From positions 1 to 22,424 of the IMG/VR virus record IMGVR_UViG_3300021090_000329: a stretch of DNA of 22,424 bases; one strand, 5' to 3'. The notes below the pieces were generated by a model. It was not told the DNA's origin. It ran no database searches and worked only from the letters and a program-made list of their open reading frames with translations. The position numbers and the translations under genes are program-made. The first letter of the stretch is position 1. Each line of letters begins with the position of its first letter. Source of the DNA: a virus. Positions 8,442-21,589 of the stretch are shown in pieces.

Positions 8442-8768
8442 ATGACAGCATTTGTGGAAAAAAGATCAACTAAATTTACTGAAAGACTTTCTATGTTCAT
8501 GGCTATTTCATCTGCTTTTGGTGGATTTTATGTTCTTGTTGACCCAAAGTTTATAATTACTATTGCAGACCAATCTATTGAAATTGGAGGAAGTGGTTTC
8601 TCTCCTGATTTGAAAGGTGCTGTTGTCAGTTTGATTCTAATTGGTGGCTGGACAGCAATTAAAGAGTACTGGTTAGGAGCTAGTGCTTCAGGACAGAATC
8701 AAGCTGAATCTATGTCTCGTATTGCAGAATCTAATGTTGCTGAAACTAATGGGAAGAAATCCAGTTGA
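8442..8768 (+). CDS. Probable holin
   Basis: A 108-residue protein with two likely membrane helices, about residues 16-33 (LSMFMAISSAFGGFYVLV) and 57-76 (GAVVSLILIGGWTAIKEYWL), then a polar tail of about 30 residues rich in Ser, Ala, Asn and Glu. The size, two helices and position directly before the endolysin fit a class II-type holin, which opens the inner membrane to release the endolysin. The start at 8442 is chosen because the frame upstream of it overlaps the previous gene's membrane-helix codons. Its stop overlaps the endolysin TTG start. Small membrane proteins are hard to assign by eye, so the holin call leans on context. Confidence 0.6.
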   Translation: MTAFVEKRSTKFTERLSMFMAISSAFGGFYVLVDPKFIITIADQSIEIGGSGFSPDLKGAVVSLILIGGWTAIKEYWLGASASGQNQAESMSRIAESNVAETNGKKSS

Positions 8769-9130
8769 CTCTAGGAGAAAAGCAGAGACTCTTTACTTAT
8801 TTACTTGCTAAACTTGTAATCTGGGCTTATGAAAACGATTATGAACTATCTTATGGTGAAGCATTACGTACATTAGCTCAAGCTAAATTAAATGCTTCTA
8901 CTGGAATTGGTATTGTAAATACTCTTCATGCAATTCGCTTAGCAGTAGATTTCAATCTTTTTAAGGATGCATCCTTAGAATCAGATGAAGATATCTATCA
9001 AAAGGATTCTGAAGCTTATCGTCCACTTGGTGAATACTGGAAATCCTTACATCCTCTTTGTCGCTGGGGTGGAGACTTCAAGAGCAAAGATGGTAATCAC
9101 TTCTCAATGGAGCATGAAGGAGTCAGATGA
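8765..9130 (+). CDS. Endolysin, M15-family L-alanyl-D-glutamate-type peptidase
   Basis: A 121-residue zinc peptidase that cuts the peptide stems of peptidoglycan. It starts at a TTG that overlaps the holin stop; no in-frame ATG gives a full domain, and MTLGEKQRLF is the usual beginning of this family. H55 and D62 are spaced seven residues apart as in the HxxGxAxD motif, and D109 and H112 are spaced three apart, matching the T5 endolysin catalytic Asp and third zinc ligand. R35 sits in GEALRT as expected. The Gly of the motif is replaced by Arg (HAIRLAVD). The C-terminal CRWGGDFKSKDGNHFSMEHE is characteristic. There is no signal peptide or binding domain, so release depends on the holin. Confidence 0.85.
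   Translation: MTLGEKQRLFTYLLAKLVIWAYENDYELSYGEALRTLAQAKLNASTGIGIVNTLHAIRLAVDFNLFKDASLESDEDIYQKDSEAYRPLGEYWKSLHPLCRWGGDFKSKDGNHFSMEHEGVR
9117..9122 (+). promoter_or_regulatory. Shine-Dalgarno AAGGAG for the lipoprotein
   Basis: AAGGAG inside the last codons of the endolysin ends four bases before the ATG at 9127. It supports the overlapping ATGA start. Confidence 0.65.
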
Positions 9131-9492
9131 AGAAGATTTTAGTAGGTGCAGTAATTGCTTTGATGCTTGGCTGTGCTACAGCAGAAAAACCTGCTCAAGT
9201 TGTATTTGCTGCAACGTCTGCTTATGATGCAGCTCTTACTGCGGCTTTGACATACAAGAGACTTCCTGACTGTGCTACAACTACATCAAAGCTTTGTTCT
9301 GATAAAGATGTTCTTGTAACGATTTTGAAAGCTGATAATGCTGCATTTGATGCTCTTACTTCAGCTCAGAAAGTTGTTCGTAATACTACATCTAGCCAAT
9401 CCGCCCTCCAAACTGCAGCTAACTGGGCTAAAGAAGCAATTGCTGCTTTCTCTAGTGTTATCACTGCTCTTAGTAAGGAAACTACTAAGTGA
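9127..9492 (+). CDS. Small lipoprotein of the lysis region
   Basis: A 121-residue protein. MKKILVGAVIALMLGCAT is a short lipoprotein signal with the modified Cys expected at position 16; the lipobox MLGC is imperfect because the -3 residue is Met and -2 is Leu. The mature part is Ala/Thr/Ser-rich and mostly helical, with two more Cys (DCATTTSKLC). It starts in an ATGA overlap with the endolysin and ends in a GTGA overlap with the next gene. Lipoproteins beside endolysins can be outer-membrane spanin subunits, but this one is longer than typical Rz1 proteins and not proline-rich, so another role is equally possible. Confidence 0.65.
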   Translation: MKKILVGAVIALMLGCATAEKPAQVVFAATSAYDAALTAALTYKRLPDCATTTSKLCSDKDVLVTILKADNAAFDALTSAQKVVRNTTSSQSALQTAANWAKEAIAAFSSVITALSKETTK

Positions 9493-15824: not shown

Positions 15825-18800
15825 ATGATAACTCAAGATTTTGTAGATAAATTTAGTGCTCAAAAGTTAGGTAATGAAAGTGCTTTAGGTTTTGTATCTC
15901 AATCAGATGATTTTGTAGCTTCTACTGTTGTAGATATTGGAACAAGTCTGTGGAATTCTATTATTGCTGTACCTAAACTTTTGGGTATAAACACAGATGA
16001 ATATCGTGTAGATACTTATGATGTACTAAAAAGCGTGAATGAGGATTGGGCTAATTATTATGCTGAATCTAAGGATGCTGTTGAAATGGCTTCTTTCATT
16101 GGTGGATTACTACTACCTGCTGGTGCTGCAATGAAAGGTATGAAGATTCTTCAAGCTGGCAAACTAGGCTTCTATCCAACCTTTCTAAATGAAGGAACAC
16201 AAGCTGCTCGTATTTCAGAGCTACAGAAGATGCTTGAACTTGGTGGCAAATCTACTGTTGAATATCGTAATCTACGTTGGAAGATTCTTGCTACAAATGC
16301 TGGACAAGAAACTTTACAAAACGCTGGTGCGGAACTTGCTATTATTGGTACAATGAATCAGCATGCTTATATGGAAGATTACTTAAAAGATCCAATTAAG
16401 AACATTGCTATTGGACTTACTATTGGAGGAGTTATTGGATCTGGTCTAGGGCAGATTGCTATTCGTAAGACTCTTGCAGAATCCCTTGGATCTACTGCCA
16501 CAGAAGCACTTGGCAAAGTTCAATCAAAGTTAGTAGATATTCCTCTTGGTATTAGTGATGTAGATAAAGTACAACGCTTTAGTGTTAATGCTCAAATCCT
16601 CCACGGTATTGCTGAAGATACAACTCAAACTCCATTAACAAGAGATATTGCTATAGATTTTGCTAGAATGTGGGAAGGTAGAGCTGGACAACTTGAGCAG
16701 ACTTCTGTATTTGGAACTGCTTTAAAAGGGTTAAAAGATATTGAAGCTAAAAAACAAGCTCGTGAAATTATGCTTTCAGATGCTGCTTATGGAGCTAATC
16801 GTGTTGAACTTACTACATTTGATGATCGTGAGTTTATGTTACGTAAGAGACCTGGAAAAGAATTCTTTACAGATGAAGCTGAGAAAGTTGCTGGTATTAA
16901 ATTTGATAGGCTTGCCGAATATTCAAGAGAAACTAGAGCTTCTTTAATATCATCTTCTGGATTAGAAAGACTTAAACCAGATTGGGAAGAATTAATGAAA
17001 AATGTTTATAAGATTAGTTATTCACCTTTTCATAAAGCTTGGATTCCTGTATCACAAATAGCAAATTACAGTCGTGCTGTAGATACTGGGGCTACTCAAT
17101 GGGAGAAGATCCCTGCTATCTTGAGACCAAATCCAGATGCTTTTGCTGAATTTGCAACAAGAGAAGTTCCAACAGCTAAAGCTGATAAATACTGGATCAA
17201 TACTCTTGGTTCGGTGGACAATGCTGCTTTAGAATATAAAGTCTTTATTGCAAATGGTGATCTAGGAGTACAAAATGCTTGGCTTTCTAGAATTGCTATT
17301 CTTACAGAAGATAACAAATTCTTGCCAGCAATTTATCTTGTGCCTGATGTAACTGGTGAAGTTACTATTGGACAGATAAAGAAGCAGGGACGTCTAGTAT
17401 CTATTTCTGAGTTGGAGGAACACCTAGCATCAAAGAAGACTCAGCTTGTTAAAGAGATGGTCACGCAAGGCTCTTCTATTCAAGAAATAGGTATTCGTCT
17501 AAATGTTTCTTCTTCTGCTATTGAAAGAATGCTTATGACTGGAGAAGCTCTTGCTCAACAAGATGGTTGGAGACTATATACTTCTGCACGTAGTATTGAA
17601 GAAAACTATCTTTCTCAGAAAGGACGTATGCTTGATTTCACTACAAATGGTAAGCGTGTAGCTTCTCTTTACAACCGCAATGCTGATATGTCTGCACGTT
17701 TGGATTCTAAATTCATTCGTGAACAGAACCTAGGTATCATGGTAGATATCATTGCTGGATCTAAGAGTGCTATTATTAAACAGCTTTATGAAGTTTTGGA
17801 TGCTGATCGTAGAACTTGGGATATCTTTGATGAACAGCTTGCTAATATTGTTAATGAGAAAGCTGGTAGTTTCTTCTTTACTTCAGCAGACTTTGCTTCT
17901 CGTCGTATGGGAGATATTGGGCATATTGCTTCTGTAAAAGGACAAGAACTATTTGGTGTATTTAACAACGTATCTCAACGTGAATTAACTCCTCTTGCAA
18001 CAAAGACGAGAGAAATACTTACTACACAAGCTGGTTTAAATGAGTTTAATGAAACAATCAATATTCTTACAAGTACGTCTGGTTATCGTAATATTGATGA
18101 AGTTACTGGACAACTATATCGTTTAGTAGAACAAGAGCCTGGAACATTTGTTCGTTCACCTATTTACAAACCTAATGGAGGCTTGCTTAAGCCTTCTGAT
18201 GCTGTTTTATCTTGGATAAAAGAGATGAAGCGTGTTGGTGGAGAACTATTCCAGTTTAAGAATACTGTAAACAAGATTCAAGGTTTCAAGGAATTGAATG
18301 ATATTGGTTTGTGGATACCTACTTTTAATCCAGCTAATAAGTTTATCTCTTACGTTATAGACAATCAAGCTGCTGAAGGAGCTTCTCGTGTTAAGCTTCT
18401 TGCAGGCAAGAGCCCAGAAGAATTAGCTTCTCTTGAAAGAAATTGGAAATCTCAATCTGGCAATGATGCTCGCTACTCTTTAGTAACTAAAGCTGAACAA
18501 GAAGATTATAATTTCTGGCAGATGAGGCAAGACCCAATTGAGATGGACTTTGCTGATATTACTAAGTTTCACTCAGGAGCTTCTGGTCTTGCTATTACTC
18601 CTATGGACGATACTTTTGCTACTACTGTCATTGAGAATTTACATAACAGAATTATCCACTATGGAAGAAAACTTCAGGAGATGTATCTTTCTGATATTAT
18701 GACACAGCTGGATGATATGTCTGCTTTGAATCAAAAGTATATTGGTAATCAACCTATTCTTGCTGGTAAGATTGGGCTTGCTCAACGTGAAGACGCTGCT

Positions 18801-21059
18801 CGTGCAATTAAGAATGTACTTCTTGGCAATTCTCAACTTGGTAATTACAGTACATGGAAGACTATCAACAATGGCTTCACAAGTATGGTAGAGTGGGGTT
18901 CTAGAAAGACTCAAGAACTGTATAAGGGATTACTTTCTAAAGAAGTAGGCGAAAGAGATTTTGTTAAGATGCAAAAAGAACTAGGCAACATGGGAATTGC
19001 TTCCCCTTTTGGTAATTTTAATGAATTTCAACTAGCTAATGCTGAACGTATTGAAGCGGCTAAAAGAATAAGTATTGTCCCTGCTGATATGAAAGGAGAT
19101 ATTCGTGTATTTGCTCCTGGAAAACCTTTTGATCTTCTTAAAGATGGAAAAGTAGTAGGACGTGCTTATGTTGAGCAGGTTGGTACTGATCTAAAGATAC
19201 ATGACATTGCAGCTACTGGAGGTAAAGGAGCTTTTGGATTAAAAACACTACAAGAATTTGGTACATCTCTAAAAGAACTATTTCCTGGGATAGAAACAGT
19301 TTCTGGACTTCGTGTTACAGGAATGAGAGAAGCTAAGTTTATGAAATCTATTGAAGAAATAAAAGACTTAGTAAATAAAAAGATAATTACACAAGAAGAA
19401 GCTGATATCCGAATAGAGAAATTTACAACTACAGCACCTCTTTCTTTTGTGGATTTTAGTGTTGTAGAAAGAAGGAAAGAAGCTGCTCGAATGGATAGTC
19501 TTCTTGTAGGAGCGCTTGCTCGTAAGAACAATATATCTTCAGCCTCAGCTGAACAAATTATTGCTACTGGTAATTCTGTGTTGGCTACTCTTGCTCTTCG
19601 TGTTCTTGAGACAGGTCATGCTTTTGTAACAGCAGTTTCATGGCCTATTATGACACTTCCTGAACTCTTAACCAAGATGCCTAAGACATTCATGGGGAAT
19701 GCTGCAACAGGAGAAGCTATTGAAGCTATGTTTCCTGCTCGGGCTATTTATGATGGGATTCGTTGGAGACATTCTGATGCAGCTAAGCCTCATATTGAAC
19801 GCTGGATCAAAGAAGGATTTGGTAAGCCTATTGTATCAGAAGCTACAGATTTGAATCAGATGCTTTCTTCTGGAGCACAAGGTATTGTTGGTAAAATCAA
19901 TAAGATTGTTAACTCAGATTTTATTAAAACACTTTCTACTCCATCTGACTTTGCTGAGAAAGAAACTCGCTTGTGGTCTCTTTCAGTTGGTTATCAAATA
20001 GCGCGTCGCTTGTATCCTGGGATTTCTGATGAAGGAGCAGACTTGTTTGCTAAACAATTCTTAACTAAGACTGTAGGTAATTACTATGCAGCTCAACGTC
20101 CAGCTATGTTTCAGGGTACCTTTGGTGTAGCTATTGGGCTCTTCCAGACTTACATGCTTTCTTGGGCACAGCAAATGTATCGTGGAATTGAAGATCGTCA
20201 GTTTAAGGCTCTTGCTTCACAGATGTTATCACAAGCTGGATTATTCGGTATGTCTTCTCTCCCCATGTATGATATGTTTTCTAAGACTATTGGTGAGCAC
20301 TTCTCCGATAAGCATTATGATCTATCCACAGGAACTTATCGTGCACTTCCAGATCAAGCAGCTGAGTTTCTTATCTACGGTTTACCAGCCTCATTAGGAG
20401 TTGGAGTCTATACTCGTGGAGATTTACAGCCTCGCCTTCCATTTGTAGGACAGCAGAATCCACTTGATACTATTGCGGCTATTAATGCTTCTCGTCAATT
20501 TATTGGTGCAACAGGTCATTCTTTATCTAAGGTTTACGAAGCTAATGGATTAGGCGATAGGTTTCGTGGATTACTTGAAGGAATAAGTATGCAAAGTCTA
20601 TCTCGTCCACTTGCTCGTATTGTTGAGACAGTGCCTTTACCAGATGGTAAAGGAGGATTTCGTGCTGTAGGAGCTATCTCTCGTGAGGGAAATACTATTG
20701 CTACTTCAGAAGAAATATGGAGTGGCCCAGGTTTAATGTCACGCTTACTCACTTCTAGAGCTGCAGAAGAACAAGTGAAGAGAGAAGTGGATTACCTCAA
20801 TAGCTTTTATGGTGCTGTAGATTACAAGAATAGAAAGAAAGCAACTGAAGCTCTCAAGTCTTCTATTCGTAGTGGCACACTGGATGATGCAACTCTGGAA
20901 AACACTTCGAGAGAATACTTGAGGACTGGAACATCTACTGGATGGACAGCTGCACTGAACGAAGCTCTTGCTACCTCCGAAGGAGGAATAGACTACAAAC
21001 TTGGCAAGAGACTTCGTTCAGGCTCACCGCTACAACTGATGATTCAAGAGAATTACTAA
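15825..21059 (+). CDS. Very large internal virion (ejection) protein, multidomain
   Basis: A 1744-residue protein, the largest gene here. Hydrophobic stretches that could enter membranes lie at residues about 84-105 (EMASFIGGLLLPAGAAMKGM), 193-212 (NIAIGLTIGGVIGSGLGQIA), 1259-1285 and 1428-1453. A helix-turn-helix-like segment is at about 540-571 (SIQEIGIRLNVSSSAIERML). A distinct alpha/beta module is at about 1091-1170 (KPFDLLKDGKVVGRAYVEQ ... FPGIETVSGLRVTGMREA). The region 1259-1530 with DFAEKETRLWSLSVGYQIA and AEFLIYGLPASLGVGVYTRG resembles C-terminal parts of large podovirus virion proteins I recall. The role, by analogy with T7 gp16, is to cross the envelope and help DNA enter the cell. 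No muralytic or HExxH motif was found. The start follows the previous stop by one base. Confidence 0.65.
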   Translation: MITQDFVDKFSAQKLGNESALGFVSQSDDFVASTVVDIGTSLWNSIIAVPKLLGINTDEYRVDTYDVLKSVNEDWANYYAESKDAVEMASFIGGLLLPAGAAMKGMKILQAGKLGFYPTFLNEGTQAARISELQKMLELGGKSTVEYRNLRWKILATNAGQETLQNAGAELAIIGTMNQHAYMEDYLKDPIKNIAIGLTIGGVIGSGLGQIAIRKTLAESLGSTATEALGKVQSKLVDIPLGISDVDKVQRFSVNAQILHGIAEDTTQTPLTRDIAIDFARMWEGRAGQLEQTSVFGTALKGLKDIEAKKQAREIMLSDAAYGANRVELTTFDDREFMLRKRPGKEFFTDEAEKVAGIKFDRLAEYSRETRASLISSSGLERLKPDWEELMKNVYKISYSPFHKAWIPVSQIANYSRAVDTGATQWEKIPAILRPNPDAFAEFATREVPTAKADKYWINTLGSVDNAALEYKVFIANGDLGVQNAWLSRIAILTEDNKFLPAIYLVPDVTGEVTIGQIKKQGRLVSISELEEHLASKKTQLVKEMVTQGSSIQEIGIRLNVSSSAIERMLMTGEALAQQDGWRLYTSARSIEENYLSQKGRMLDFTTNGKRVASLYNRNADMSARLDSKFIREQNLGIMVDIIAGSKSAIIKQLYEVLDADRRTWDIFDEQLANIVNEKAGSFFFTSADFASRRMGDIGHIASVKGQELFGVFNNVSQRELTPLATKTREILTTQAGLNEFNETINILTSTSGYRNIDEVTGQLYRLVEQEPGTFVRSPIYKPNGGLLKPSDAVLSWIKEMKRVGGELFQFKNTVNKIQGFKELNDIGLWIPTFNPANKFISYVIDNQAAEGASRVKLLAGKSPEELASLERNWKSQSGNDARYSLVTKAEQEDYNFWQMRQDPIEMDFADITKFHSGASGLAITPMDDTFATTVIENLHNRIIHYGRKLQEMYLSDIMTQLDDMSALNQKYIGNQPILAGKIGLAQREDAARAIKNVLLGNSQLGNYSTWKTINNGFTSMVEWGSRKTQELYKGLLSKEVGERDFVKMQKELGNMGIASPFGNFNEFQLANAERIEAAKRISIVPADMKGDIRVFAPGKPFDLLKDGKVVGRAYVEQVGTDLKIHDIAATGGKGAFGLKTLQEFGTSLKELFPGIETVSGLRVTGMREAKFMKSIEEIKDLVNKKIITQEEADIRIEKFTTTAPLSFVDFSVVERRKEAARMDSLLVGALARKNNISSASAEQIIATGNSVLATLALRVLETGHAFVTAVSWPIMTLPELLTKMPKTFMGNAATGEAIEAMFPARAIYDGIRWRHSDAAKPHIERWIKEGFGKPIVSEATDLNQMLSSGAQGIVGKINKIVNSDFIKTLSTPSDFAEKETRLWSLSVGYQIARRLYPGISDEGADLFAKQFLTKTVGNYYAAQRPAMFQGTFGVAIGLFQTYMLSWAQQMYRGIEDRQFKALASQMLSQAGLFGMSSLPMYDMFSKTIGEHFSDKHYDLSTGTYRALPDQAAEFLIYGLPASLGVGVYTRGDLQPRLPFVGQQNPLDTIAAINASRQFIGATGHSLSKVYEANGLGDRFRGLLEGISMQSLSRPLARIVETVPLPDGKGGFRAVGAISREGNTIATSEEIWSGPGLMSRLLTSRAAEEQVKREVDYLNSFYGAVDYKNRKKATEALKSSIRSGTLDDATLENTSREYLRTGTSTGWTAALNEALATSEGGIDYKLGKRLRSGSPLQLMIQENY

Positions 21060-21063
21060 TTCA

Positions 21064-21070
21064 TAAGGAG
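21064..21070 (+). promoter_or_regulatory. Shine-Dalgarno TAAGGAG for the basic micro-protein
   Basis: TAAGGAG, a near-perfect match to the anti-Shine-Dalgarno, lies seven bases before the ATG at 21078. It is the strongest evidence that the 18-codon frame is translated. Confidence 0.8.
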
Positions 21071-21077
21071 ATAACTT

Positions 21078-21134
21078 ATGCCAAAAGGTAAACGTAAAAG
21101 TCCTGTGCCGCGGATGAGACGTAAGCGGTACTAG
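21078..21134 (+). CDS. 18-residue, highly basic micro-protein
   Basis: The frame reads MPKGKRKSPVPRMRRKRY and stops at TAG. Nine of 18 residues are Lys or Arg and none is acidic. It follows the largest ejection gene by 18 bases, has TAAGGAG seven bases upstream and is the last gene before a strong terminator. The coding bases are GC-richer than the genome in general. The charge suggests binding to DNA, RNA or membranes. A packaged DNA-neutralising peptide is one possibility, and a cargo- or assembly-related tail another. No known family is recognised. It is too short for usual gene callers. Confidence 0.65.
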   Translation: MPKGKRKSPVPRMRRKRY

Positions 21135-21169
21135 CTTCACTGACTAAGACTTAGAAGCTTCTCCTCTTT

Positions 21170-21221
21170 AACAGGTACAAGGTGTCAGGCTTTACGCTCG
21201 GCATCTTGTACCTGTTTTTTT
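21170..21221 (+). terminator. Intrinsic terminator of the late operon
   Basis: AACAGGTACAAGGTG (21170-21184) pairs with CATCTTGTACCTGTT (21202-21216) over 15 bp including one G.U. The loop has 17 bases, and a run of seven T ends at 21221. It lies 35 bases after the micro-protein stop. In the opposite direction the stem is followed by only two U, so it should act mainly on plus-strand transcripts. The right arm and most of the loop are also the last codons of the convergent minus-strand gene. A smaller 6-bp inverted repeat (AGCTTC/GAAGCT) lies at 21133-21159. Confidence 0.85.
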
Positions 21222-21589
21222 AAGTCCCGAATACGTTTGATGTCTGCGTTTGTCTTAGCATCAAATACAATTTCTTTTAGTCCAAATATCTCACAGTAAG
21301 TCTTGTTAAGAATATCTGGGTTAAGTAGCATTTGTTGATATCCAATAGTTTCAACAATGTTACCAAGTATCCAGAATTCAAATCTGTTGAACATATCATT
21401 AGCACGTAATCCTGAGAATTGTGCATCAGATAACTGTGTTATTGTGCGTGGATCAAATTGATTTACTTTTGGTTGTAGTAATCCAGGAGCTGTTATACCT
21501 GTAGAAGTAGCTTTACTTTTAGGAAGTGTTCTTACAAGATGTTGAATAACTCTATCTAAGATAGTTTTTGTAGTCGTATTTCGACCCAT
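21185..21589 (-). CDS. Small unknown protein, last gene of the convergent operon
   Basis: A 134-residue protein starting MGRNTTTKTILDRV, with AAGGAGGT about ten bases upstream. A longer frame to 21748 exists, but the strong ribosome site and the overlap with the upstream gene favour 21589. It has FEFWILGNIVETIGYQQ, a mildly hydrophobic helix, in the middle and a charged helical end (NADIKRIRDLKKQVQDAERKA, the last part perhaps a coiled coil). There is no signal peptide. It overlaps the upstream gene by 38 bases, and its stop lies in the loop of the terminator. No family is recognised. Confidence 0.65.
   Translation of the reverse strand: MGRNTTTKTILDRVIQHLVRTLPKSKATSTGITAPGLLQPKVNQFDPRTITQLSDAQFSGLRANDMFNRFEFWILGNIVETIGYQQMLLNPDILNKTYCEIFGLKEIVFDAKTNADIKRIRDLKKQVQDAERKA

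Follow-up and report, generated by a model that had tools for sequence, protein, structure and literature searches.

The late gene block of a tailed phage appears to close with a very short gene of its own. In the window (the whole 22,424-base stretch of DNA analysed here, the late gene block of a virus record), an 18-codon frame on the plus strand, the micro-ORF, encodes the predicted peptide MPKGKRKSPVPRMRRKRY with a net charge of +9, and we consider it fairly likely that this is a real, young, translated micro-gene. The fuller reading, that of a young, lineage-specific late micro-gene whose product binds nucleic acid, is held more tentatively and falls somewhat short of an even chance. The claim for the micro-ORF is kept modest because it is not conserved in relatives.

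The micro-ORF and its surroundings

The virus, a tailed phage with an SU10-like major capsid protein (PF17236), is distantly related to PaP2, 119X and Neko (Pseudomonas phages, Jamesmcgillvirus), to EBPR podovirus 3 and to Polaromonas phage Tiera. The longest frame of the capsid gene starts at TTG 2144, but the spacing from its AAGGAG is better (7 nt) to ATG 2147, which is the likelier start. The last large virion gene (15825..21059, plus strand) encodes 1744 aa, matches phrog_16165 (E 5.7e-148) and has tblastn matches in 19 phage records at about 30% identity; the protein is akin to PaP2 p25 and Neko gp24, and its relatives are annotated as “structural” or “ejection protein”. Directly 3′ of the TAA of this gene come TTCATAAGGAGATAACTT and then ATGCCAAAAGGTAAACGTAAAAGTCCTGTGCCGCGGATGAGACGTAAGCGGTACTAG, which translates as MPKGKRKSPVPRMRRKRY: the micro-ORF opens at ATG 21078-21080, 18 nt after the large gene's stop, and ends at TAG 21132-21134. 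The frame cannot extend further upstream, because a TAA stands in frame at 21072-21074.

The Shine-Dalgarno sequence TAAGGAG (21064..21070, plus strand) lies 7 nt before the ATG and is both the best and the only 7-nt match among the 20 operon starts tested; the 6-nt AAGGAG precedes four operon genes, the major capsid gene among them, and weak sites precede most others. The peptide contains nine Lys or Arg residues, no Asp or Glu, three Pro and one Gly; it is almost without hydrophobic residues, lacks a hydrophobic face and is Arg/Lys-rich in its C-terminal half (RMRRKR). An intrinsic terminator (21170..21221, plus strand; a 17-bp outer and 3-bp inner stem at 21170-21216, then T7; −30.3 kcal/mol, z −9.6), which a simple terminator scanner had missed, starts 35 nt after the micro-ORF stop and also spans the last codons of a convergent 134-aa gene on the minus strand (21185..21589, start ATG 21589) with a weak match to phrog_16359. 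The original prediction had thus described the place correctly: an 18-residue frame with TAAGGAG at good spacing, nine basic and no acidic residues, a position between the largest virion gene and a strong terminator, and a ribosome site of a quality rare in this operon. Its further suggestion that the peptide is abundant fares less well. In the predicted fold, UCUCCU at 21160..21165 (plus strand) is able to pair with AGGAGA at 21066-21071 and may leave the ribosome site partly closed, so high output should not be assumed.

Distribution among relatives

The original prediction looked to related phages for a short basic frame after the largest virion gene. When 40 related records, representing 35 other distinct junctions, were read after the large-gene stop, a short basic frame led by a Shine-Dalgarno site (SD) was present in none of the records and at none of the junctions, and frame, start and charge were alike absent. 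The micro-ORF is therefore specific to the window's lineage at this position (in the collections searched), and is not a conserved end-of-operon gene of Jamesmcgillvirus-like phages; judged from sequence, it is either lineage-specific or spurious. The same zero count indicates that tiny basic SD-led frames are no common by-product of these gaps. In many relatives a terminator directly follows the large-gene stop, and several others have convergent genes and no gap after the large gene. These include L018, the nearest relative read at the junction (62% identity in the C-terminal part of the large gene), where the convergent genes overlap and the homologue of the 134-aa gene runs into the large-gene stop codon. 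Closer kin are represented by two capsid fragments (L044 and L045, 81-85% identity) that end short of the micro-ORF site.

Wider searches gave the same picture. A single-protein scan for conservation in relatives of the 1744-aa gene found none, and the micro-ORF was absent from all of the 26 and 28 loci that profile scans recovered; a genome contig search returned no relatives, and a near-DNA search among phages returned no match. For the peptide itself, tblastn against phages found no homologue of MPKGKRKSPVPRMRRKRY, Pfam no family, and a scan of IMG/VR with the C-terminal DNA pattern PRMRRKRY* no match. A scan for short basic SD-led frames elsewhere in the relatives' genomes likewise yielded no homologue (the G001 contig, from the nearest relative, covers the late operon only partly and entered without its capsid-to-large-gene part). 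Two other short frames in relatives deserve mention. MPIKKPRKSKGEKHRNRKNRWS of relative G021 (L059:12045, plus strand) is basic and 22 aa long, but it lies on the strand opposite the late genes and has a weak ribosome site. Tiera_023 (L005:13549-13710, annotated on the plus strand) follows a terminator just before opposite-strand genes and is possibly a spurious call.

Chance expectation and polybasic frames in other phages

Because the micro-ORF was chosen by eye and the chance figures were computed afterwards, their significance is overstated: among dinucleotide shuffles of the 112-nt gap, 0.105% contained an ATG with an SD of at least 6 nt and at least 10 codons, 0.015% did so with an SD of at least 7 nt, and none of 20,000 did once a net charge per residue of at least 0.45 was added. 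The micro-ORF also ranks first by charge among the 49 short SD-led ATG frames on both strands of 711 kb of window and relatives (0.50 per residue, against a mean of 0.088 and sd of 0.123). The combination of ribosome site and charge is probably not due to chance.

Comparable frames occur in other phages. When IMG/VR was scanned for SD-led frames that begin with MPKxK or MPKGK, virion operons yielded very short and very basic frames that fall into several unrelated groups (by a rough estimate, about one chance match is expected in one MPK-type scan); since the patterns demanded a basic start, these parallels show recurrence, not kinship. Unrelated viral contigs carry polybasic SD-led frames of 14-25 aa between their virion genes (L093:12104, L101:8747, L097:4022, L092:2089 and L147:5944). 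MPKCKKKKPKRRSN and MPKKKKKKPYPKKK (14 aa) and MPKKKKKKPRKKAGTRKPSRVKRGY (25 aa) fit closely into the spaces between their neighbours, as is usual for real genes, and MPKGKKKKNKKKNKKKAKNKKKKR (24 aa) sits between portal and scaffold/capsid genes. A longer, conserved and very basic family of 41-44 aa (MPKGKNKKYSKKQ...) was found in 35 IMG/VR contigs and includes gp29 of Pelagibacter phage HTVC106P; in the loci read, it follows an M15 peptidase gene close to where the late gene block ends. Members of this family (MPKGKNKKYSKKQMKIARMAAPFDKITGADFAMLKKKRKKKV) have a strong ribosome site (L137:9547-9675, plus strand; L160, reverse complement, 6557; L183:7001-7129) and no significant PHROG or Pfam match; the parallel peptides also gave nothing significant against PHROG. 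HTVC041P gp27 has a near-identical start region (CATAAGGAG..ATGCCAAAAGGTAAA). No direct precedent for polybasic phage microproteins turned up in the literature searched. The idea of a late basic micro-protein thus gains parallels in the virion operons of other phages and loses the support that the 40 relatives might have lent it.

Possible explanations

On the reading we favour, the micro-ORF would be a young, lineage-specific micro-gene in which the late (virion) mRNA has its 3′ end. Its own strong ribosome site would drive translation, possibly helped by reinitiation of ribosomes that come off the 1744-aa gene, whose stop is 18 nt upstream; transcription would stop at the terminator 35 nt beyond the micro-ORF stop codon. 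The product would be an 18-residue, protamine-like, non-amphipathic polycation (Lys/Arg with Pro and Gly) that would most likely act late in infection, through electrostatic binding to nucleic acid, either phage DNA or late RNA. We infer such binding as the simplest guess for a polycation free of a hydrophobic face. Placing MPKGKRKSPVPRMRRKRY in virions, or giving it a role in condensation or ejection, is pure speculation.

The most serious alternative, doubtful but only moderately less probable than the nucleic-acid-binding micro-gene, is that the frame is neutral: the gap of about 110 nt would be a spacer, either not under selection or gained recently, or what is left of a lost downstream gene, and any peptide made would have no function. 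The absence of the micro-ORF from 40 relatives fits this, as does the nearest relative, which has no gap at all. So does relative L124, in which the same large-gene stop is immediately followed by an AAGGAG-led gene (4030 onward, plus strand; at least 200 aa), so that a lost downstream gene is conceivable. Against it stand the shuffle probabilities, about 1e-3 for the start and below 1e-4 with charge (though post hoc), and the fact that MPKGKRKSPVPRMRRKRY matches no Pfam family. Rather unlikely, to our mind, is an element acting at the RNA level, in which the SD-like site, internal hairpins and terminator would form a structured 3′ UTR serving late-mRNA stability or ribosome recycling, with the peptide irrelevant, or in which the frame would be a leader tuning termination before the convergent genes. 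The fold of 21060-21225, terminator included, is strong (z −5.7), and the SD can pair just before the terminator; however, 21060-21168, which leaves the terminator out, folds weakly (z −1.97), and an Rfam search of the region matched no family.

Two further functions for the peptide are each very improbable. The RMRRKR stretch with hairpins nearby resembles the arginine-rich motif of lambda N and could suggest an RNA-binding peptide that alters transcription or termination, but the micro-ORF closes the late operon, and everything that it could regulate in cis is upstream of it. A cationic, envelope-active lysis helper would agree with a short, cationic peptide of predicted late expression. The model for it, however, the disruptin of phage PhiKT, is an antimicrobial-type peptide that forms an amphipathic helix (PMC12819732), which the proline-containing and nearly hydrophobic-free MPKGKRKSPVPRMRRKRY would not, and the lysis genes of the window are 12 kb upstream of the micro-ORF (M15 endolysin, 8765-9130; lipoprotein-like, 9127-9492).

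The micro-gene reading has a bearing beyond this phage. The length limits of gene callers exceed frames as short as 18 codons, and such programs would overlook a class of polybasic, SD-led micro-genes located in virion operons. It is improbable that tailed phages repeatedly invent polybasic virion-operon peptides of 14-25 aa as late, protamine-like factors that bind DNA in packaging or ejection, with MPKGKRKSPVPRMRRKRY a recent instance. Finding peptides of this type in virions would add a protamine-like factor, not now recognised, to the tailed phages.

Comparison with known systems

The HTVC106P gp29 family (MPKGKNKKYSKKQMKIARMAAPFDKITGADFAMLKKKRKKKV) shares with the micro-ORF an MPKGK start, a strong ribosome site (AAGGAG in the family), a very basic composition and a position close to where the late gene block gives way to opposite-strand genes. 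Its members, annotated as hypothetical, belong to a different phage group, are over twice as long, have a conserved middle with two acidic residues and show no alignable similarity past the first residues; the 18-aa MPKGKRKSPVPRMRRKRY has neither the core KNKKYSKKQMKIA...FDKITGADF nor the length of 41-44 aa. HTVC041P gp27 (MPKGKGYKRGDLNKD..., 45 aa) shares the first five residues, and its start-region DNA is 93.5% identical over 31 bases (E 0.02), but it lies between scaffold and capsid genes and contains acidic residues. The similarity stops after the fifth codon, and the likeness is therefore probably convergent.

Disruptin, like MPKGKRKSPVPRMRRKRY, is a short phage-encoded peptide; MPKGKRKSPVPRMRRKRY differs in that, by its sequence, it does not form an amphipathic cationic helix and is coded outside the lysis cassette. 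The J protein of phiX174 is small and binds DNA. J, or VP8, is a capsid-interior protein of the ssDNA Microviridae (PMC11945456), and MPKGKRKSPVPRMRRKRY resembles it as a short, highly basic phage peptide with few or no acidic residues (here, none). No sequence similarity links the two, and MPKGKRKSPVPRMRRKRY, a predicted peptide, comes from a dsDNA tailed phage with an SU10-like capsid gene and not from a microvirus. If polybasic peptides of this kind do recur in tailed phages as packaging or ejection factors, they would be the dsDNA-phage counterpart of the microvirus J protein.
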